This document shows, piece by piece, positions 162 through 64,000 of a stretch of 64,000 nucleotides of DNA. The DNA is from Verrucomicrobiia bacterium (GTDB lineage: Bacteria; Verrucomicrobiota; Verrucomicrobiia; JADLBR01). The stretch lies in NCBI GenBank assembly GCA_020847615.1, contig JADLBR010000440.1:1-64000 (forward strand). The letters run 5' to 3'. The notes under the pieces are model-generated. The model saw only the letters and a program-made list of their open reading frames with translations. It was not told the DNA's origin and ran no database searches. How positions within the stretch are numbered: position 1 is the first letter of the stretch; each line of letters begins with the position of its first letter. The position numbers were made by a program, and so were the translations under genes.

Positions 162-297
162 TGTCGGACTTTGTCCGGCAGCCTAGCTTGAAAATAGCCG
201 CAGCGCCTCCCGTAGCCGAACGCGTAAGCGTTTGGCCGCCAAGGCCTCACGGCCTCGGCTACATTTTCTGCCCCGGTGGTCCGGCGGCTGCCGGATG
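162..297. repeat. Dispersed palindromic intergenic repeat, copy A
   Basis: Two modules lie side by side. The first (162-178) is a short hairpin, GTCGGAC-TTT-GTCCGGC. The second (about 190-295) begins GAAAATAGCCGC, contains the inverted pair GTAGCCGA / TCGGCTAC, and ends in the small palindrome TCCGGC-GGCT-GCCGGA. The second module is closely matched at 55115-55222, and both modules recur at 63934-64000. The hairpin core also forms the ends of the element at 27432-27642. It is non-coding and sits just downstream of a stop codon. Confidence 0.75.
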
Positions 298-21036: not shown

Positions 21037-21420
21037 ATGAAACCGGAAGTTGGGATTCTGAAGAGCGACACCCGGGGCCGGGTGCAGTACAGCGCGGAGC
21101 ATCGGCAGAGGGTCCTCGAAGAGTTCGGGCGCAGCGGGATGAGCGGGGCGAAGTTCGCCCAGTACGCCTGGGTGAAGTATTCGACCTTTGCCAATTGGGT
21201 GCTGCGGCGCCGACGGGGAGAGGGTTGCGCGTCCGCCAAGGGCGAGGCGGGCAAAGGGGCGATGCAATTGGTCGAAGCCGTGGTGGGCCGGCGGGAGGAC
21301 GGGGAGCCGGTTCTTGGGGGGCTGGAGCTGGAACTGGCCGGCGGCATTCGGCTGCGCATCCGTGATCGGGGGCAGCTGAAGCTGGCGGCGGCGTTGCTGC
21401 GGGAACTTGGGCAGTGCTGA
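21037..21420 (+). CDS. tnpA: IS66-family accessory protein TnpA
   Basis: A 127-residue protein with the N-terminal helix-turn-helix typical of IS66 TnpA (YSAEHRQRVLEEFGRSGMSG, then FAQYAWVKYSTFANWV). The C-terminal part has the GLELELAGGIRLRIRD strand pattern. TnpA is thought to bind the element's ends and is needed with TnpB and TnpC. Its TGA overlaps the GTG of tnpB (21414-21420), the usual IS66 arrangement. With tnpC missing it is probably a remnant. Confidence 0.85.
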   Translation: MKPEVGILKSDTRGRVQYSAEHRQRVLEEFGRSGMSGAKFAQYAWVKYSTFANWVLRRRRGEGCASAKGEAGKGAMQLVEAVVGRREDGEPVLGGLELELAGGIRLRIRDRGQLKLAAALLRELGQC

Positions 21421-21760
21421 GCTTCTCCGGCAGCCTGAAGATCTATCTGGCCGTGGAGCCCCGCGACCTACGCAAAGGGTTCGACGGGCTGGCGGCCGAC
21501 GTCAACGGGAAACTCGGCGCGCAGGTCAAGAGCGGCGCGCTGTTTGTTTTCTGCAACAGGAGGCGGACACGGCTCAAGGTCCTGTATTGGGACGGGAGCG
21601 GGATTTGGATTCTGACCAAACGGCTCGAGGAGGGCCATTTCAGCTGGCCGGCGGCCGATGCGGCCGACGGTGGGACCCCGTGGTCGGACCACAGGATCTA
21701 TTGCAACGACAGCCGGTTGGGATGGAAACTGGGGCGGTTTTGGGCCCTTAGGCGCAATTT
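21414..21760 (+). pseudogene. tnpB: Truncated IS66 TnpB (Orf2)
   Basis: From the GTG at 21414 the first 80 or so residues match TnpB well (SGSLKIYLAVEPRDLRKGF, SGALFVFCNRRRTRLKVLYW, ILTKRLEEGHFSWP). After that the sequence no longer resembles the family. There is no stop codon: the frame stays open and runs in phase into the phosphodiesterase gene at 21876, ending at 22421. A fused 335-residue product is possible on paper but is probably not functional. Confidence 0.75.
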
Positions 21761-21875
21761 CCGGACTCGTTTTTTGGTTCTAAGGAACCGACCATCTCCC
21801 TTCCCTGTTGTGCCCGGGCGCGCGCCTGGCAACGCCGCACGTGCCGCGACCGGGCTCGAAAGTGAAGCCGCCGCC

Positions 21876-22421
21876 ATGAAGTCCATCCGCCTGCTTCTTG
21901 CCGCCCTGGTTCTGGCGCCCGGCCTTTCGGCCGAACACCGGATTGACGCGCGCACACCGAACGGGCTGAGGGACCTGTTTCGTCCCGAGCGTGGGCCGCT
22001 TCCGTTCGTTAGCGCTCACCGGGGGGGCGCCCAAGAGGGCTTTCCGGAAAATTGTCTGGAGAGCTTCGAGCATACGCTCCGGCACACCTTCGCGATCATG
22101 GAGATTGATCCGCGCTACGCCAAGGATGGCGCGATTGTCGTGCATCACGATGCAACGCTGGAACGCACGACGACCGGCCGGGGAAAGGTCTCAGACTTCA
22201 CGCTGGCGGAATTGAAGCAACTCCGTCTCAAGGATCCGGAAGGCAACGTCACCCACGAGGTCGCCGACATCATCGATCTCGAACCGGACTACCGCTCTTT
22301 CCTTCGGCGCGGTGCCGATCTGGTCGAGACCGACATACCGGTGCGGCTCGGGCCGTTGCTTCGGGGCCCGGCGCCGGTATCGCCGACGAAGGCTCCCTAT
22401 CTCATTCCTTTCCCGCCCTGA
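21876..22421 (+). pseudogene. Internally deleted secreted glycerophosphodiester phosphodiesterase
   Basis: The start MKSIRLLLAALVLAPGLSA is a good signal peptide. The catalytic front of the family follows: SAHRGG, FPENCLESFEHTL, EIDPRYAKDG, HHDATLERTTTG. Right after RLKDPEGN the sequence jumps to the typical C-terminal end of this family (EPDYRSFLRRGADLVETDIP). The middle of the TIM barrel, some 100 residues compared with the usual size near 290, is gone without loss of frame. At 181 residues it very likely cannot fold as a normal enzyme. Its end overlaps the end of the convergent FAD gene by 20 bp. Confidence 0.75.
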
Positions 22422-25400
22422 GGACCTCCGTCGCGTGCAGCGCGTACACCCCGCGCAGATCGCGCGCAAACTCCTGCAGGACCTTCTCGCCCAGACCGTC
22501 CCAATCGCCACACCGGTAGAGCGCGCGCGCCACCGCGATCTCCCTCAGGCAGAGTTGGCGCTCGTTGCCACCATCCGACCCGTACCCGCCGGCCGCGGTG
22601 ATCGCTTTGACGTCCGTCATCGCATGCCCCCCGATGTCGGGCTTTTGGAGCAATTCCGCCAGGGGGCGCGCCGCCGACGGGTCGCGAAGCGCCTCGAGCG
22701 CCAGCGTCACGGCCCGGAAGCGCGCGAAGGTCGAGCGCCCATCCATCTTCGCCACCAGATCCAGGAGCGGCGCCAAGGCCCGCTTGTCGCGCGTCCGCCC
22801 AAGGGCCACGATGCAGCTGTCTTCCCGATTCATCCGCCGCCCGAACGCCGTCTCATCCCTCAGGTCGATGTCGGGCGCCGGCTGCTTTCCCGACACCAGG
22901 GAAATCAGGGTCTCGGCACCCGTCGCGTCCCCCATGATCCCCAGCACGTGCGCGTACACCAATTTCTGCGCGGGCGTCTTCGCCTCGCCGTACGCCTTCC
23001 GGACCCGCGGGAGCGCCTGCTCCCACTGCGCGAGGACCAGGCCCACATCCTTGTATCCATTGCCCAGTCCCGTGACCGCGAGTGCGAGTCGCTCGACGTC
23101 CACGATGGCGTTGTCTTTCCATCCCAGGACCTCCGGCGCGAGGTTTCCCCTCTCGACCAGATGCTGCTGCAACCCCCTCATGTCTATCGTCCGAAAAGTT
23201 TTTCCACCGCGCGCGGCCATGGCGCCCGCCACGCCAGCCACGTACCCCATGTTCTGGATGTCCGGCTGCATGCGCATGATCGGCATCGCGTCGCGATGCG
23301 CGCTGATGCCGAGCCCGATGACCATCAGCCCCTCAAGCCCCTTCGGCAGCAGCGCGCGATACGGCACGTTGGCCGAACAGATCTTCTGCCCGGTCGCCTC
23401 GCTGACGTAGCAGATCTCGGCAATCGAGTAGCCGTGGCTGTCGAAGTTGCTGCGCGCCTGCACCACGGTATCGGGAAAGGTCCGCCCGTTGACGATGTCC
23501 AGCGGGGTGACCCAGCAATCGCCCACGATCCGCTGCCGCTCGCGGCTCTCCACGAGTTGCGAGACATCCCAGACCCTGCCCGCCCCCGCGCGGCCGCGCA
23601 CGCCGAAGAGCCACAGGTCGGCCGCATCGCAATCGTTGACATACCCGAAGTCGGAATTGATGTAGCTTGCGCCCAGCCTGCGCGGCGACAGCCCAACCCC
23701 CTGCAGCGCGATCTCATCGGCCCCCTGGAACACGCACGCCGCTCCCGCCGACGCCGCGATCTCCGCGTTGCCGGTCGCATCGACCACGCCCTTGGCCAGA
23801 ACGACACCGCGCCCCGCGGGCGTCGCCACGACGACGCCGGTCACGCGGTCGCCCTCCACGAGTGCACCGCACCCCAGCGCCCCGAACCAGATCTCGGCCC
23901 CGGCCTTGCGGTTCTCCCGCCGCCACCACTCGGCCTTGCCGACCACGTGAACCGCCGCGCCCAGTTCCTTCACGCCATCGTCGTGTTCCGCCGTAAAGCC
24001 GCACACCGTGCCGTACCAGTACTTGCCGATCATGCCGAGCGTGCCGACGCCGCCCAGGCCATGCAGGTGTTCGATCACCAGGGTCTTTGCACCCTGCCGC
24101 CCCGCCGCGATCCCCGCGGGTGCGCCGCCGGTCCCCCCGCCCACCACAACCACATCATACTCGCCCAGCACCGGCAACGCGGTCTTCGCCGCGCGCACGG
24201 TCGGCAGCCCGCTCAGAAACGGGCGCGTCCCAGTCAACAGCTCCTTCACCTCGCCGCGCGCGACCGCGTCGCCGGGATGGCCCGCGAGCACCACGCCCCC
24301 CGGGGCCGGCAGCGCCCTCGCTTCCGCCGCGGCCACGGCACCGATGCGTTCGCCCACCGCCATCAGTTCCAGCGGCCGCAACAGTTGCGCCGCCGCCGCC
24401 CGCGGCACGTCCGCACACCCCCCGAGCACGTACACGCGCGGCACGCCCGCCGGCCGGAAACAGTCGAGGTCCACCCCCTCGGCGCCCGGCCATTCGGCCG
24501 CAAGCGATCTCTCGCCCGCCATCGGATCGGGCGGCACATGGAACAGCGAGTCCGCGCCATCCAGCAGCGTCTTTACGAAGGTCCGGTCCCGCGCCACCTG
24601 CTCCGCCTCGGCGAACGCACGGTAAGAGCCATCCTTCATGTCTATCCGCATCTCGCACGCGTACGCTTTGCCGGCCACGCTCTTCGCCGAGCCCCCGCGC
24701 GACCCGGAGGTGATCGGCGAATCGTAATCTCCGGGCAGTGCCCTGACGGTCATCCCGTTCGACGACGGCGCCTCGCCGGCGATGATGATGCGCGTGAAAC
24801 TCTGCGGGCCCTCCGGATAGGGCCGGAACCGCCCGCCCGCCATGCGCGCCACCACGCCCCGTTCCGTCGCATCGATGACCACTTTCGCGAGCACCGCCTG
24901 CCGCCCGGTCCGGTTGGCCATGACGATGCCCGCCACGTTGCCGTCCGCATCGCGCAGCACGTCCGTCGCGTATGAGCTGGTCAGGAAGCCCACGCCGCCA
25001 TCCAGCAACGCCCTATCCAGCGCCTGTTTCACGCGCAGGGGCGTCGGCGTGGCCACGGCCGTGCCGGCGCCCACCGCCCGCACGATCAGCTCACCCAGCA
25101 AAAGCCGCTTTGCCCCCTCCTGCATCCTCACCGCGACCTTCAGATGCCGGGCCGGCCGACCGATCTCCGCGGAATACCGCACGGCGTTGGATCCCGATCC
25201 CGCCTCGCCGCGCATTGGGATCTCCTCGCCCCACGATCTGCCGTCCTCGCTGACCGACACGACCGCCGACCCGACGTCGAAGTCACCCGGACGTTTGAAC
25301 GCCATCAGGTCCACGCCCTGGACAGGCCCCGCCCCGCCAATCGCCGCCACGATAACCGCATCCCGGCCATACTCGACGCTGTGGTGCTGGGCATCGTCAT

Positions 25401-25794
25401 GGCGCCCGTCGCACAGCATGCCACCGCTGTCCTTGTGCTTGCCCCCGCTTGGCACATCCGTCGTGTATGTGAAGGGCAATGATGTCTCGGTCCGCACGTA
25501 GATGGATTTTGCCAGCGCCGACACCGGGACTTCGCCCTCCTCCAGCCAAAGTCGCAATGTCCCCGCCACATCGTCGCCCAGATACGGGCGCGGCGCAGCG
25601 AGGAAAACCTTCGCACCCGCCCTGGCGGCAGCCACCCCCGCCGCAACCGCACCACATGTGCCACCCACAATGACGACATCCGCTTCGCGGGCGACCGGGA
25701 TCGCCCGCTCCGATTCCAACAACCCCGCCCCGCTCGCGACTTCACCAAAACCCGCAACCGCCGCCCACACCACAGCAACCCACCGTCCGCTCAT
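22402..25794 (-). CDS. Secreted tandem FAD-dependent oxidoreductase with inserted carbohydrate-binding-like domain
   Basis: An 1130-residue exported protein (signal MSGRWVAVVWAAVAGFGEVA). It holds two FAD_oxidored-type modules in a row. The first begins at VVIVGGTCGAVAA (about 41-52), whose glycine motif is degenerate; the second at VVVVGGGTGGAPA (about 548-560) is intact. Residues of roughly 110-247 form an insert with SVSEDGRSWGEE and ARHLKVAVRM, like an F5/8 (galactose-binding-like) fold. The last 250 residues are helical with HEAT-like periodicity. AAGGAGAT upstream fixes the start. The substrate is unknown; a role in carbohydrate oxidation is a guess. It is a paralogue of the gene at 27825. 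Confidence 0.8.
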   Translation of the reverse strand: MSGRWVAVVWAAVAGFGEVASGAGLLESERAIPVAREADVVIVGGTCGAVAAGVAAARAGAKVFLAAPRPYLGDDVAGTLRLWLEEGEVPVSALAKSIYVRTETSLPFTYTTDVPSGGKHKDSGGMLCDGRHDDAQHHSVEYGRDAVIVAAIGGAGPVQGVDLMAFKRPGDFDVGSAVVSVSEDGRSWGEEIPMRGEAGSGSNAVRYSAEIGRPARHLKVAVRMQEGAKRLLLGELIVRAVGAGTAVATPTPLRVKQALDRALLDGGVGFLTSSYATDVLRDADGNVAGIVMANRTGRQAVLAKVVIDATERGVVARMAGGRFRPYPEGPQSFTRIIIAGEAPSSNGMTVRALPGDYDSPITSGSRGGSAKSVAGKAYACEMRIDMKDGSYRAFAEAEQVARDRTFVKTLLDGADSLFHVPPDPMAGERSLAAEWPGAEGVDLDCFRPAGVPRVYVLGGCADVPRAAAAQLLRPLELMAVGERIGAVAAAEARALPAPGGVVLAGHPGDAVARGEVKELLTGTRPFLSGLPTVRAAKTALPVLGEYDVVVVGGGTGGAPAGIAAGRQGAKTLVIEHLHGLGGVGTLGMIGKYWYGTVCGFTAEHDDGVKELGAAVHVVGKAEWWRRENRKAGAEIWFGALGCGALVEGDRVTGVVVATPAGRGVVLAKGVVDATGNAEIAASAGAACVFQGADEIALQGVGLSPRRLGASYINSDFGYVNDCDAADLWLFGVRGRAGAGRVWDVSQLVESRERQRIVGDCWVTPLDIVNGRTFPDTVVQARSNFDSHGYSIAEICYVSEATGQKICSANVPYRALLPKGLEGLMVIGLGISAHRDAMPIMRMQPDIQNMGYVAGVAGAMAARGGKTFRTIDMRGLQQHLVERGNLAPEVLGWKDNAIVDVERLALAVTGLGNGYKDVGLVLAQWEQALPRVRKAYGEAKTPAQKLVYAHVLGIMGDATGAETLISLVSGKQPAPDIDLRDETAFGRRMNREDSCIVALGRTRDKRALAPLLDLVAKMDGRSTFARFRAVTLALEALRDPSAARPLAELLQKPDIGGHAMTDVKAITAAGGYGSDGGNERQLCLREIAVARALYRCGDWDGLGEKVLQEFARDLRGVYALHATEVLRAGKE

Positions 25795-25802
25795 GCGCTC
25801 AT

Positions 25803-25808
25803 CTCCTT
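25803..25808 (-). promoter_or_regulatory. Ribosome-binding site of the 1130-aa FAD protein
   Basis: On the minus strand AAGGAG lies 8 bases before the ATG at 25794. It decides this start over an in-frame ATG 12 codons upstream, and it restores a clean signal peptide. Confidence 0.75.
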
Positions 25809-25985
25809 CACCACAGTACCCACGTAGCATTCCGGTGGTTCGGATTCCCTCTCAACCTCCGGACGTTCCATCTTTCAATCCTACATCCGGCTCGCACGCT
25901 CCCGCAATCCGGCAGGCTGTCTCCCACCCAGGCCACTGCGATCCCCACTGCGCCGCATCCCCCAAGTCCACCGAAGAAGTAAATT

Positions 25986-26405: not shown

Positions 26406-27365
26406 TCACCCGGATGGTCGCAGCGTCAGGTGGATGAAACCGTCGGATATCCTCTCCACCATGAACGAGTCCGCCAGCTTGGCGTCGGCGACCGCCCCGG
26501 CCATCGCATCGCGCAAGTTCTCCCAGAGCACCGCGACCAGAGCGCCCGGCACCACCCGCCACGTCCCGACGCGGGCGGCGGGCTTGCCAAAGCGCAATGC
26601 GTTCGTCCGTCCCTCCACGGGAACCAGCAGCGTCACCACCAGGGGGATCCCGAGCAGCTCGACTTCCTGATAGAACGCCACCGAGTCGCCCCGCACCTCC
26701 ACCATCAATGACTTGCGGCGCGGCTCGAGCAGCCCGGGGGTCTGCCCGGCGAAAAACTCGACGCGGTCTGCCAGAAAGAGGTTCACGCTGCCGTCGTAGA
26801 GCGCAAGGCCGCCCAGCTCATACGGGTCGCCCTCAATTTCTTTTCGACGCTGCGCGAAGGCGACGACTGTCTCGACGAGCGCGGCGTCACCCTGGGAGGT
26901 CACCTTCAGCGTCATGAGGTCTGCGGGTGTCTCCATGAGCCGCGTGGCCATCATCGCGTACAGTCCCAATCCTCCCAGCGCAAAACCAAAGTACCCGAAG
27001 GCCAAGGCCCGCAGCCGAATCAGCCGCTCCAGGCCGCGAATCACGCACAGCATCAGGATCGAGACCGAGAGCGCCCCCGCGAGCGCTATTCCGGCAAGCG
27101 ACCTCGCCGGAGCCGCCCCGCGCGGCACTTGGAATTTGAAATCCCCCGCAAGCTTCAATCCCTCGGGCGCTGCCGATGGCTGCCGCTGTGCACCCGCGGC
27201 ACTTTCCTCCGTCATGGCCGCTTGCGGGGGAGGGATATCGACACGCGCCGGGTCCGCAGCCATGCCCGGCCCCGCCTCCTGGGCCCCCGCATCGGAGGCC
27301 GGCACTACCCCGGCCAGCACCGCAAGAAAAACGACAGCACACCCCACCACACGACCCGCGATCAT
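26406..27365 (-). CDS. Exported membrane protein of unknown function
   Basis: A 319-residue protein with an N-terminal signal (MIAGRVVGCAVVFLAVLAG), a Pro/Ala-rich linker, and two membrane segments near 90-150 (IALAGALSVSILMLCVI; LAFGYFGFALGGLGLYAMM). The soluble C-terminal part is mixed alpha/beta, with ADRVEFFAGQTPGLLEPRRK and VEVRGDSVAFYQEVELLG. No catalytic motif is recognised. A start 16 codons upstream is possible but would spoil the signal. It converges on the coiled-coil gene with a gap of 67 bp. Confidence 0.6.
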   Translation of the reverse strand: MIAGRVVGCAVVFLAVLAGVVPASDAGAQEAGPGMAADPARVDIPPPQAAMTEESAAGAQRQPSAAPEGLKLAGDFKFQVPRGAAPARSLAGIALAGALSVSILMLCVIRGLERLIRLRALAFGYFGFALGGLGLYAMMATRLMETPADLMTLKVTSQGDAALVETVVAFAQRRKEIEGDPYELGGLALYDGSVNLFLADRVEFFAGQTPGLLEPRRKSLMVEVRGDSVAFYQEVELLGIPLVVTLLVPVEGRTNALRFGKPAARVGTWRVVPGALVAVLWENLRDAMAGAVADAKLADSFMVERISDGFIHLTLRPSG

Positions 27366-27431
27366 GGGGCCGGTTGTAGTGGGGCCTATGCGGCAACGCA
27401 AGCCGCTAACCACTGCGTCCTGTTTTCAGAC

Positions 27432-27642
27432 CTAGCAGCCTGTCGGACTTAGCCAAGTCCGACAAGGCTGCTAGAAAGCAAAACCGCCATAACAATAAAG
27501 AGTTGTAACGGTGGTCCGAGGGATGTCGCAAGGTCTCATGCGGGTTGACCCACAATTCGCTATCCTACGGATCCTGCTCATTTTCAAGAAGAAGGCGGTT
27601 TTGCCATAGGAGGCTGCCGGACAAAGTCCGACAGCCTCCTAG
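27432..27642. mobile_element. MITE-like element with hairpin terminal inverted repeats
   Basis: The left end (27432-27489) reads CTAGCAGCCTGTCGGACTTA and continues as a hairpin to GGCTGCTAG, then GCAAAACCGCC. The right end, on the opposite strand from 27642, reads CTAGGAGGCTGTCGGACTTT, continues as a hairpin, then GGCAAAACCGCC. So each end is itself a hairpin and the two ends are inverted copies of each other over about 50 bases. About 105 bp between them (27490-27594) is less GC-rich and non-coding. This is the structure expected of a non-autonomous transposable element. The same hairpin core occurs at 162-178 and 63934-63972. It fills most of the 459-bp gap 27366-27824, where I see no gene. 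Confidence 0.7.
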
Positions 27643-27810
27643 CATGGCCACCGTCCGGTCTTGCTTGAACGAAAAAGTCCCGCTCTTGGAGGAGACATGA
27701 TCCAGGATCAAGGGTGGCTCGACTCCGGCCCGTCGCCCTGATAGCCTTGACGTTTATCGAACAACGGGCGCGCCAGGGAACCGCATGGCCGGTAGTTGAC
27801 CTGCTGCCCG

Positions 27811-27816
27811 GGAGGA
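27811..27816 (+). promoter_or_regulatory. Ribosome-binding site of the 1003-aa FAD protein
   Basis: GGAGGA lies 8 bases before GTG 27825. It supports the GTG start, which gives a signal-like N-terminus, over an ATG at 27714. Confidence 0.7.
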
Positions 27817-27824
27817 GCAAATCC

Positions 27825-30800
27825 GTGACAGCAGATTCCATTCGCATCGTATCACTCGTTGGCGGCCTGGCCGTGGTACCCGCCATGGGCGGCGGGATCG
27901 TCGAGCCCGAGACAACCGTGCCACTCATACAGGACGTCGACGTGGTGGTGATCGGGGGCACTTGCGCCGCCGTGGCGGCCGCGGAGAGCGCGGCGCAGGC
28001 TGGCGCAAAGGTCTTTCTGTCAACGGCGGGGCTGTGCCTGGGTGAAGACATCGCCGGGACATTGCGGGTCTGGGCCGAGCAGGACGAGATCGCTGGTTCC
28101 GATCTCATGGGGCGCCTTTTTCTCCCCGCCGGTCAGGAGGTGTCATCGGCACCCGGCCGGATCTACACGACTCCGCTCCGCGCGAAGAGGGCGCTGGACA
28201 CGACACTGCTGAAGGCCGGCGTCCGCTTCCTGACCGGCGCCTACGCGACGGACGTGCTTTCGGATGCCTCCGGGCTGCCCGCGGGCGTCGTGCTCTGCGA
28301 CCGCAGCGGCCGACAGGCCATCCGGGCAAAGATCATCATCGACGCCAGCCCGCGCGGAATGATCGCGCGGCTGGCCGGGGCGGAATTCACGCCGTTCCCC
28401 GGGGGCAACTACGAGGTCTCCCGCGTGGTGATCGCGGGCGCGGCGCCGGACTGCGGCGGAACAGTCACCCGCCACGACCGGTGGCAACCCGAGAAGGATG
28501 TCGTGCAACTCTCCTCCAAGACGACGATCGCGCCCGGTCTTTATGAATGCGTGTTCGCGCTGCCTTTTGCAGACGGCGGGCCGCAGTCCTCAGCCGAGGT
28601 CGAACAGGCCGCCCGCGACCGGACATTCACGGCGACGCAACTGGATGCGGCCGATCGCGTGTTCTTCGTCCCCCCCGATCACGTCATCGCCGCAGCACCC
28701 TGCGCGACGGAGAGGATGGCCGCGGATGAACTGAACCTAGAGGCACTGCGCCCGACGGGGATCCAGGGCGTCTACGTCCTCGGCCCGCTCGCCGATGTCC
28801 CGCGACCTCTGGCGAACGAGCTCGCGAAACCCGGTTTCTCCATCCGCGTGGGGGCACGCCTGGGACGACTGGCCGCGAGCGACGCCAAATCGCGGGCGAT
28901 CGCGGGCGATGTCCGGCTGCCGGCCCGCCGAAAGACCGGCGCCACTGCCGACGTGCGCGAGGTCCGCGGCACGCTGACCCAGCCCTTCGTCGCGGCGACG
29001 GGGACGGTCAAGTGCGAGGCCAGCGAGCTTCCCGTGCTGGGCGACTTCGACCTGGTCGTGGCCGGGGGCGGCACGACGGGCGCCCCGGCCGCGGTCTGCG
29101 CGGCCCGGAGTGGCCTGAACACGGTCGTGGTCGAGCAACTCCACGAGCTGGGCGGCGTGCAGACCGCCGGCATGATCTGCGGGTACTATTATGGCAACCA
29201 GCGCGGCTTCACCCGCGAGATCGACGCGGGCGTCGCGGCGACCGGCAAGGTCAAGTCTCAGTCCAAGGCAGAATGGTATCGCCGCGCGATACGCGATGGC
29301 AAAGGGCGGATCTGGTTTGGCTCGATGGTCGTCGGCGCCTGGCTCGAGGGCACGAGCCTCCGCGGCGTTGTCGTGGCGACACCGGACGGGACGCGCGGCG
29401 TGATACGGTCCAGGGCTGTCATCGACGCATCGGGCAACGCCGACGTGGCCGCCGCCGCGGGTGAGCCCACCGAATTCTACCATCCCGAAGAACTGGTGGG
29501 CCAGGGAGTGGGCATGGCCGTTATCCGACTGGGCGCGGGCGGCCATAACAACGATTATGCCCTGGTGGACGACACCGACGCGTCCGACCTCTGTTTCTTC
29601 GGCCTGCGCGCGCGACTCATGACCGACGGCGGTTGGGATGTTTCACAGCTGGTCAACTCGCGGGAACGCCGCCGGATCGTCGGCGTGTTCCAGGTCTCCG
29701 CGCTGGACTACCTCACGGCCCGAACTTTCCCGGATACGATTATCCAGCACCGCAGCCGCTTCGACCTGCACGGGTCACCGAGCCACGATTTCTTTTACAC
29801 GAAGAACATCCGGACCGCCAACCACGTGACGCTCGAGGCCAACGGCCCCTATCGCGCGCTGCTGCCTAAAACGACCGATGGCCTGCTGGTGGTGGGACTG
29901 GGCATGAGCGCGACACGGGACGCGATGGCCATCATGCGCATGCAGGCAGATCTCCAGAACCAGGGATATGCCGCCGCTTGCGCCGTCCGCCTCGCGCTGG
30001 CCAGCGGTTGCGAGCTGCGGGCCATCCCCGTCCGCGAACTGCAGCGCCAGCTGGTTGAAAAGGGCATTCTCCCCGAATCGGTCCTCGGCGAGCAGGACTC
30101 CCACCCGCTTCCGGACGCGGTGCTCAAGCTCGCGTCCCACGACGTCATGATGGGGTATGGCGGCCTCCCATACCTCTTCGCCGACCCCCAGCGCGCAAAG
30201 CCCCTGCTCCTCGCGAAGTACGAGGAGCTCTCGACCCACACCAGCGGTCGCGATCCCGAGGTGAGCCTGATCTACGCCCATGTGCTCGCCATGCTGGGAG
30301 ACCCGGCCGGGGTGGACGAACTCGCCGCCTGGGTCAGCGACCACGGCTGGGACGAAGAGTGGCCCGAGGACACCGGATCCCGTGTGAATCGCATGGAGTC
30401 GTATGTTCTGGCGCTCGGGCGCGCCGGATCCAAAAAGGCGGTGCCCGCAGTCCTCGCCAAGGGACGCGAGCTCTGCGACGGAAAGAAATCGATCTCGTCG
30501 GGCCGTTGCCGCGCGCTCGGGTTCGCGAGCGTGGCCCTTGGCGATCCCGCATTCGCCGAGATGCTCGCCCTCCTTCTGGCGCAGCCGGGTATCGTCGGCC
30601 ACGCGATCCGCCTCGCCGACCCGATCCCGCCGGTTCCCGGCTACAACAGCCGAAGCAATTACAGCCAGCAGGAGAAGATGGAAGTCGCGCGCGAGATCAA
30701 CCTCGCCGCCGCCCTGTACCGACTGGGGGACAGCGACGGCAAGGCCAGGACGATCCTCGAGTCGTACGCGCAAGACCCGCGCGGCTTCTGCGCGAATTAT

Positions 30801-30836
30801 GCGCGCCTCATCCTCGCAAAGAAACCATCGCTCTGA
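27825..30836 (+). CDS. Secreted tandem FAD-dependent oxidoreductase, paralogue of 22402-25794
   Basis: A 1003-residue protein with a GTG start and a signal-like segment (IRIVSLVGGLAVVPAMG). The first module begins VVVIGGTCAAVAAAES, the second about residue 420 with LVVAGGGTTGAPAAV. As in the paralogue, the first glycine motif is changed to G-x-T-x-x-A. Shared blocks include RTFPDT, PYRALLPK and GLGMSATRDAM followed by IMRMQ. The F5/8-like insert of the paralogue is missing here: about 15 residues stand in its place. A helical, HEAT-like C-terminal part follows. The two genes are close relatives from an old duplication. Substrate unknown. Confidence 0.8.
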   Translation: MTADSIRIVSLVGGLAVVPAMGGGIVEPETTVPLIQDVDVVVIGGTCAAVAAAESAAQAGAKVFLSTAGLCLGEDIAGTLRVWAEQDEIAGSDLMGRLFLPAGQEVSSAPGRIYTTPLRAKRALDTTLLKAGVRFLTGAYATDVLSDASGLPAGVVLCDRSGRQAIRAKIIIDASPRGMIARLAGAEFTPFPGGNYEVSRVVIAGAAPDCGGTVTRHDRWQPEKDVVQLSSKTTIAPGLYECVFALPFADGGPQSSAEVEQAARDRTFTATQLDAADRVFFVPPDHVIAAAPCATERMAADELNLEALRPTGIQGVYVLGPLADVPRPLANELAKPGFSIRVGARLGRLAASDAKSRAIAGDVRLPARRKTGATADVREVRGTLTQPFVAATGTVKCEASELPVLGDFDLVVAGGGTTGAPAAVCAARSGLNTVVVEQLHELGGVQTAGMICGYYYGNQRGFTREIDAGVAATGKVKSQSKAEWYRRAIRDGKGRIWFGSMVVGAWLEGTSLRGVVVATPDGTRGVIRSRAVIDASGNADVAAAAGEPTEFYHPEELVGQGVGMAVIRLGAGGHNNDYALVDDTDASDLCFFGLRARLMTDGGWDVSQLVNSRERRRIVGVFQVSALDYLTARTFPDTIIQHRSRFDLHGSPSHDFFYTKNIRTANHVTLEANGPYRALLPKTTDGLLVVGLGMSATRDAMAIMRMQADLQNQGYAAACAVRLALASGCELRAIPVRELQRQLVEKGILPESVLGEQDSHPLPDAVLKLASHDVMMGYGGLPYLFADPQRAKPLLLAKYEELSTHTSGRDPEVSLIYAHVLAMLGDPAGVDELAAWVSDHGWDEEWPEDTGSRVNRMESYVLALGRAGSKKAVPAVLAKGRELCDGKKSISSGRCRALGFASVALGDPAFAEMLALLLAQPGIVGHAIRLADPIPPVPGYNSRSNYSQQEKMEVAREINLAAALYRLGDSDGKARTILESYAQDPRGFCANYARLILAKKPSL

Positions 30837-55114: not shown

Positions 55115-55222
55115 GAAAATTGCCGCAGCACTTCCCGTGGCCGAACGCGTCAGCGCTTGGGCGCCAAAGCCTCACGGCTTCGGCTACATTTTCCCAAGCC
55201 CGTGGTCCGGCGGTTGCCGGAC
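55115..55222. repeat. Dispersed palindromic intergenic repeat, copy B
   Basis: It matches 190-295 closely: GAAAATTGCCGC, then CCGAACGCGT, GCCTCACGGCTTCGGCTAC, ATTTTC, and GTGGTCCGGCGGTTGCCGGA. The hairpin module present in copies A and C is missing here. It exactly fills the gap between two convergent genes and could help end transcription of both. Confidence 0.75.
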
Positions 55223-63933: not shown

Positions 63934-64000
63934 GGCAGCCCGTCGGACTTCGCAAAGTCCAACACGGTTGCCTTGAAAATTGCCCATCGCCTCCCGCAGC
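63934..64000. repeat. Dispersed palindromic intergenic repeat, copy C (cut by window end)
   Basis: GGCAGCCCGTCGGACTTCGC pairs with AAAGTCC and GGTTGCC to make the hairpin module (63934-63972). TTGAAAATTGCC and CGCCTCCCGCAGC follow, like 189-214 of copy A. The rest lies outside the window. Confidence 0.7.

Follow-up and report, generated by a model that had tools for sequence, protein, structure and literature searches.

A hairpin-ended miniature element in a Verrucomicrobiia genome, probably a non-autonomous IS1182-family transposon inserting at CTAG

What kind of element occupies the short intergenic space between two oppositely oriented genes in a 64,000-nucleotide stretch of Verrucomicrobiia DNA (hereafter the window), and which enzyme could have moved it there? 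The first-pass annotation had described positions 27432-27642 as a MITE-like element with hairpin-forming inverted ends, and its boundaries, its folds and its inverted ends were all seen in the present analysis. The coordinates are exact: the element is 211 bp long and carries CTAG at both edges. The left CTAG (27432..27435, unstranded) is the foot of the left hairpin and, judged from the sequence and from an insertion of the same family beside dxr (described below), also the left copy of the target duplication. The left terminal hairpin (hpL; 27432..27474, plus strand), recognised from sequence, folding and genome copies, is an IS1182-type end that starts CTAGCAGCCTGTCGGACTT. It is joined by an AAAG linker (27475..27478, plus strand), which reads ATAG, CAAG or TAAG in other copies, to a core that is 125 bp long in this copy and is closed by a 10-bp inverted repeat, with left arm CAAAACCGCC (27479..27488, plus strand) and right arm GGCGGTTTTG (27594..27603, plus strand) around a variable interior (27489..27593, plus strand). 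After a short linker follows the right terminal hairpin (hpR; 27606..27642, plus strand), which has its stem at about 27608-27640 and ends in CCTAG, the last four bases being the right target duplication as read from the sequence (27639..27642, unstranded). Its outer ends repeat each other in inverted orientation. The list of open reading frames contained none of at least 80 amino acids inside the element, in agreement with the earlier statement that it holds no transposase; two mechanical reading frames overlap its edges.

The neighbours of the element are a 335-amino-acid reading frame with no Pfam match on the minus strand (26406-27413) and a 1040-amino-acid FAD_oxidored frame on the plus strand (27714-30836). 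The gene at 26406-27413 is itself flanked by two genes of the FAD-dependent oxidoreductase type (PF12831, 192.8 and 213.6 bits), at 22402-25830 on the minus strand and 27714-30836 on the plus strand, which are possible paralogues. Farther to the left, a single open frame at 21414-22421 (plus strand) begins as IS66 Orf2 (PF05717, 99.1 bits) and continues as a glycerophosphodiester phosphodiesterase (PF03009, 66 bits), and is apparently an IS66 fragment abutting a host gene.

Folded as single-stranded DNA, positions 27425-27650 (226 nt) reached -60.1 kcal/mol, compared with -28.7 +/- 3.5 kcal/mol for shuffled sequences (z = -9.05; none of 200 shuffles folded equally well), and each end of the element folded on itself (left 27432-27474, right about 27608-27640). 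Patterns made from the two hairpins were rare in the window: the left pattern with up to three mismatches occurred twice (0.01 expected), and the right pattern also occurred twice (0.05 expected). The additional occurrences correspond to the sites near 162-178 and 63934-63972 that were noted earlier as having the same hairpin core. They are genuinely related hairpins, GTCGGACTTTGTCCGGCAG at 163..181 (plus strand; right-hairpin pattern) and GTCGGACTTCGCAAAGTCCAAC at 63942..63963 (plus strand; left-hairpin pattern), but they are isolated and are not copies of the element. Each continues into a different repeat: the one beside 163-181 is a GTAG REP-type palindrome at 212-236, and the one just past 63942-63963 is a decayed palindrome that is visible in locus L100.

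The GTAG-tagged palindrome GTAGCCGAACGCGTAAGCGTTTGGC at 212-236, which recurs weakly at 55137-55161, opens a repeat that resembles a REP pair. Comparable stretches adjoin element hairpins at several loci, for example L062, L082, L105 and L113. At another locus, L054 (G000:C575), positions 1063-1980 gave a weak match to a Y1 transposase (E 0.0023, below cut-off) with several GTAG-type palindromes around it, and this gene is a candidate REP-associated transposase.

A search of the whole genome for further copies, as the earlier annotation had proposed, found many. The genome (G000) is a draft of 6,036,465 bases (6.04 Mb) in 592 contigs, 94.5% complete. A BLAST search using the element returned at least 88 matching pieces at E <= 10, and 40 of the 197 first-look candidates were scored. 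The core pattern CAAAACCGCC-N(90-120)-GGCGGTTTTG identified 42 cores with exact repeats, and the pattern of a perfect left hairpin 43 occurrences; the reversed core pattern and the control for the hairpin pattern each gave 0. With lengths of 110-140 bp permitted in the core search, 38 of the 42 cores were 126 bp long, two were 125 bp (the window copy included) and two were 127 bp. Several contigs of the genome break off within copies, as is typical of repeats in draft assemblies.

Matches at E <= 0.001 were present in 6 of 57 genomes, namely the genome itself, G001, G004, G016, G031 and G045. The four distant genomes among these (G004, G016, G031 and G045) matched the outer end over 23-26 bases, with one additional match of about 40 bases in G045, and G004 and G031 hold elements of other lengths that share the outer ends. 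G001, which belongs to the same genus, contained copies with the identical hairpin type and core repeat and with different interiors, nine of them complete among the stretches fetched. At one position shared by the two species, L150 in G000 and L138 in G001, both carry an element, with different cores, which may reflect either one old inherited insertion or two separate events. When the core pattern was run against 387 genomes of the phylum, a set without G001, 10 matched, the source genome among them; the other nine had one match each with interiors that looked unrelated, and were taken as chance. Altered copies were also found: L105 and L310 had lost part of the element, L306 had no hairpin of this type on either side, and others were cut by contig ends.

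The length of the element was nearly fixed. Complete copies with CTAG at both ends were sought at 193-218 bp in the stretches fetched, and the 38 that were found (29 in the source genome, 9 in G001) were all 211-213 bp long: 10 of 211 bp, 26 of 212 bp and 2 of 213 bp. At the cut-off chosen these copies fell into five clusters, within which mean core identity was 84-92%. Consensus interiors of the clusters, built from 32 of the 38 copies and excluding the 10-bp repeats, shared only 32-56% identity in register. Within each genome (three pairs of clusters in G000, one pair in G001) the correct register was the best of 61, and therefore the interiors there are homologous without net gaps. Between the two genomes the correct register was never the best and exceeded shuffles only weakly (p 0.004 to 0.06), which by this test leaves homology of the interiors across the two species doubtful. 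In G001 the cores were 127 bp and the left hairpin was one base shorter, giving a total of 212 bp; one cluster of the source genome joined the same shorter hairpin to a 126-bp core, its copies being mostly 211 bp long, which shows that the balance of lengths is inexact.

The enzyme probably responsible was indicated by the outer ends. A search for these ends with up to two mismatches in five genomes found, in G001 (C213:77242-78860), two facing ends 1.6 kb apart with a single transposase gene between them. The protein has 468 amino acids, matches the NCBIfam IS1182 model NF033551 with 323.4 bits (cut-off 270), and lies above the Pfam cut-offs for DUF772, DDE_Tnp_1 and DDE_Tnp_1_6. Thus the full-length transposase with the same ends that the first-pass annotation had suggested looking for was found in the sister species, and it belongs to the IS1182 family. 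The ends of this insertion sequence start CTAGCAGC[C/G]TGTCGGACTT, as do those of the miniature elements, and by eye the similarity between the two is confined to about 19-21 bp per end. Ends like CTAGNANNCTGTCGGACTT are common to the miniature elements and to IS1182 insertion sequences. The resemblance is not limited to one locus: in a scan of contigs covering the best 80 of 166 related IS1182-type loci from many phyla, in which the end motif was sought up to 300 bases upstream and up to 450 bases downstream of each match, 54 of the 80 loci were flanked on either side by such an end bounded by CTAG, and with the first four bases left free the number with an end on each side rose to 63 of the 80. 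The remaining 26 loci without strict two-sided ends had a flank cut by the contig, a partial gene match, another tetranucleotide or no recognisable end. Since 54 of these loci have the strict ends and reversed flanks gave 0 of 80 by the strict test, the ends of the miniature elements are IS1182 ends. The insertion sequence of G001 is the likely mobilising partner of elements of this type, as far as sequence can tell.

The source genome itself gave no match to the G001 transposase protein at 1e-10. Its only matches to the IS1182 model were two genes, partial and divergent, at 155.8 and 130.2 bits, below the cut-off, and each had one imperfect end-like word that was not bounded by CTAG. The 42 cores agree with the earlier description of the family as active, now or formerly, but activity in this genome at present is no more than possible, since the search of the 94.5%-complete draft turned up no intact IS1182 gene carrying such ends. 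That absence is a weak argument, because the genome is an incomplete assembly of 592 contigs. As the search of this genome showed only the two partial and divergent IS1182 genes, mobilisation in trans is what we infer.

The target site could be read from one pair of occupied and empty loci. In G001, an element in L146 (1070-1281) lies immediately upstream of the dxr start codon (433.6 bits to TIGR00243, cut-off 315.7), and contig C126 of the source genome is the empty counterpart, with flanks 78% and 81% identical. These flanks overlap by five bases, GCTAG, at G000:C126:907-911. The secure length of the duplication is 4 bp, because the preceding G is also a base inside the element end. There is a single CTAG at the empty site and a CTAG on each side of the element at the occupied one, and no hairpin was lost. 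The target duplication that had been proposed as a check is therefore 4 bp, CTAG, at this one pair, in which the element belongs to the sister species and is not the window copy. For the window copy, G001 offered no empty site to compare: it has the gene on the left at 75% identity, but synteny breaks at the element. Two further comparisons were set aside: L072 of the source genome and the G001 insertion-sequence locus share a stretch that runs in the opposite direction, and L086 and L191 have only the left flank in common, with no clean empty site.

CTAG is scarce in the window, with 20 occurrences compared with 60.9 expected from dinucleotide shuffles, and 3 of the 20 lie inside the element. 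Since the elements carry a tetranucleotide that is otherwise scarce, they would import new target sites as they spread. Targeting of stop codons through the TAG of the flanking CTAG was considered and discarded. For 38 elements with 76 flanks, of which 9 were excluded as too short or too closed, the TAG lay in the longest of the three frames in 32 of 67 flanks, compared with 17 of 34 control CTAG sites of the window; there was no excess, and the figure reflects only the occurrence of CTAG.

Hairpins were rare among the ends of the full-length insertion sequences: an automatic test recognised 4 of 108 ends, and in L215, L257 and L259 the inverted arms were, by eye, shorter or placed elsewhere. 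In the miniature elements the right hairpins stayed paired through two-sided changes. Alignment of the right hairpins of 36 of the 38 complete copies (27 distinct sequences) to a drawn 15-pair stem showed 92.6% of cells paired, compared with a shuffled mean of 86.3. Two-sided changes affected 4 pairs and 29 cells (12.2 on average in shuffles, none of 500 being as high), a cell count inflated by shared ancestry, through which a small number of old events enters it repeatedly. Sliding the partner arm of the stem left 0-2 such cells. The number of pairs with a two-sided change was not above that in shuffles (128/500), further pair types were fewer than in shuffles (500/500), and position 12-26 was unpaired in 13 of the 27 distinct copies. 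The likeness of the two arms could reflect selection or, alternatively, copying between arms. Putatively, the terminal hairpins may aid recognition of the ends by the transposase, or may block read-through from neighbouring genes.

The hairpins were also exchanged. On the same core, L064, L065, L101 and L151 carry a right hairpin of another type (CCCGGACA...TGTCCGGGCTAG, with variants), and in G001 the locus L307 carries a left hairpin of another type. The swapped hairpins belong to a second miniature family, whose core measures 134 bp and has GAAAACCGCG/CGCGGTTTTC as its closing repeats, and whose hairpins likewise end in CTAG. L061 and L085 contained one core of each family in tandem between hairpins, L108 and L116 contained solitary hairpins, and L154 contained back-to-back hairpins with no core. 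Such hybrids are most simply read as the outcome of elements inserting into one another at CTAG, the terminus of both families, with deletions afterwards.

Other explanations must accommodate the same observations. Two inverted hairpins, each with CTAG at its 5' foot, recall REPINs, in which a Y1 transposase (RAYT, IS200/IS605-like) mobilises paired REP hairpins, tagged by a tetranucleotide, in single-stranded form. The genome offers possible enzymes, with 12 Y1_Tnp matches, 8 of them above cut-off, and a GTAG-tagged repeat both adjoins one hairpin (212-236 of the window) and surrounds the weak Y1 match L054. However, no pair of such ends was found at the 12 Y1 loci searched for end words or at the 9 searched for hairpins, in flanks of up to 1.5 kb, and isolated words near Y1 genes (CTAGCAG in L046, AAAACCGCC in L056) were taken as chance. 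The tag is CTAG rather than GTAG, the ends match those of IS1182 DDE transposons, and insertion duplicates 4 bp; IS200/IS605 enzymes are not known to make such a duplication. The IS1182 ends and the duplication largely refute movement by a RAYT, which we consider highly improbable. Equally remote is the chance repetition of a regulatory element or of a gene for a structured non-coding RNA. Strong folding, two-sided changes in the right hairpin and near-constant length would all suit such an RNA, but an Rfam scan of 27300-27800 gave 7 matches up to E = 10, all below the gathering score, 41 ungapped cores of 126 bp yielded a consensus fold with the outer 10-bp stem alone, and the copies terminate in transposon ends. 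An attC-like (integron) or coding interior was dismissed by eye, as stops vary between subfamilies and core lengths are 125-127 bp.

A further possibility concerns how the element inserts and could hold within the IS1182 reading. The element may land on existing hairpins, as IS1272 does, in which case its end hairpins would partly be remnants of targets, or imports. IS1272, a member of the IS1182 family, replaces stem-loops without target duplication (PMC5678879, PMC4923244), and the end hairpins described here act as exchangeable modules (L064, L065, L101, L151 and L307) and occur around two cores at L061 and L085. Against this stands the single dxr pair, where 4 bp were duplicated and no hairpin was lost, and replacement of stem-loops is accordingly judged improbable for this family, less so than a RAYT or an RNA gene.

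The reading preferred here, with an assigned probability of about 0.9, places the window element in the IS1182 family as a non-autonomous MITE with the target CTAG. On this reading a DDE transposase of that family, acting in trans, would bind both inverted ends, move the element and join it to a staggered cut at CTAG, and repair of that cut would leave CTAG flanking both sides. A more speculative extension, which is rather unlikely as a whole, is that IS1182-type transposases recognise the end hairpins in their folded DNA form, as modules that can be exchanged, and that a spacing rule between the two ends holds the elements to about 212 bp. The combination of near-fixed length and a nearly free interior makes such a spacing rule testable. 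In addition, a family with paired and swapped end stem-loops constitutes a natural set of variants for asking whether DDE transposases read DNA hairpins. The repeat with its pair of hairpins is now tied to a named transposase family and to the target site CTAG.

No description of this verrucomicrobial family was found in the literature on IS1182 and Verrucomicrobia MITEs, as covered by titles and opening lines of abstracts with few subscription journals among them. Its closest relatives in kind are MITEs linked to IS1182 in other hosts. MITEPye1 of Paracoccus yeei is an IS1182-type MITE of 159 bp that lacks an open reading frame, is intergenic, has 18-bp IS1182-like terminal inverted repeats, 4-bp direct repeats and a predicted long stem-loop, and is presumed to be mobilised in trans; there are 1-3 copies per chromosome, 96-100% identical (PMC11578231). 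The verrucomicrobial MITE is likewise short, intergenic and free of open reading frames, with IS1182-like ends and 4-bp repeats, but unlike MITEPye1 it is present in dozens of copies, falls into several diverged subfamilies, has a hairpin at each end and swaps these hairpins. In the archaeon Methanosarcina acetivorans two MITEs are linked to ISMac2 (IS1182), one of 160 bp with 14 copies, 26-bp inverted repeats and 4-bp direct repeats, and a second of 169 bp with 7 copies, 25-bp inverted repeats and no direct repeats; the words "hairpin" and "secondary structure" are absent from the main text of that report (PMC3852290).

Among the insertion sequences themselves, IS1182 elements of Verrucomicrobiota (G001:C213, loci L186/L212) have the same CTAG-starting end as the MITE, and in the insertion sequence of L219 both ends fold on themselves as in the MITE; these elements differ from it in carrying a transposase and in that most of their tested ends do not form hairpins. 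IS1272 has the transposase family that is inferred for the MITE, and DNA hairpins matter to its transposition, but its target stem-loop is lost with no duplication, whereas at the one site of the MITE CTAG was duplicated with no loss (PMC5678879, PMC4923244). REPINs and GTAG REPs moved by RAYTs resemble the MITE in their inverted hairpins tagged by a tetranucleotide and in their many intergenic copies, and differ in that the MITE has CTAG rather than GTAG, IS1182 ends, a target duplication and no associated Y1 gene that could be found (PMC3733652). MITEs of IS1182 are thus a kind already known, to which the verrucomicrobial family adds; what is unusual in it are the right hairpins with paired changes, the near-fixed length and the swapped end hairpins.
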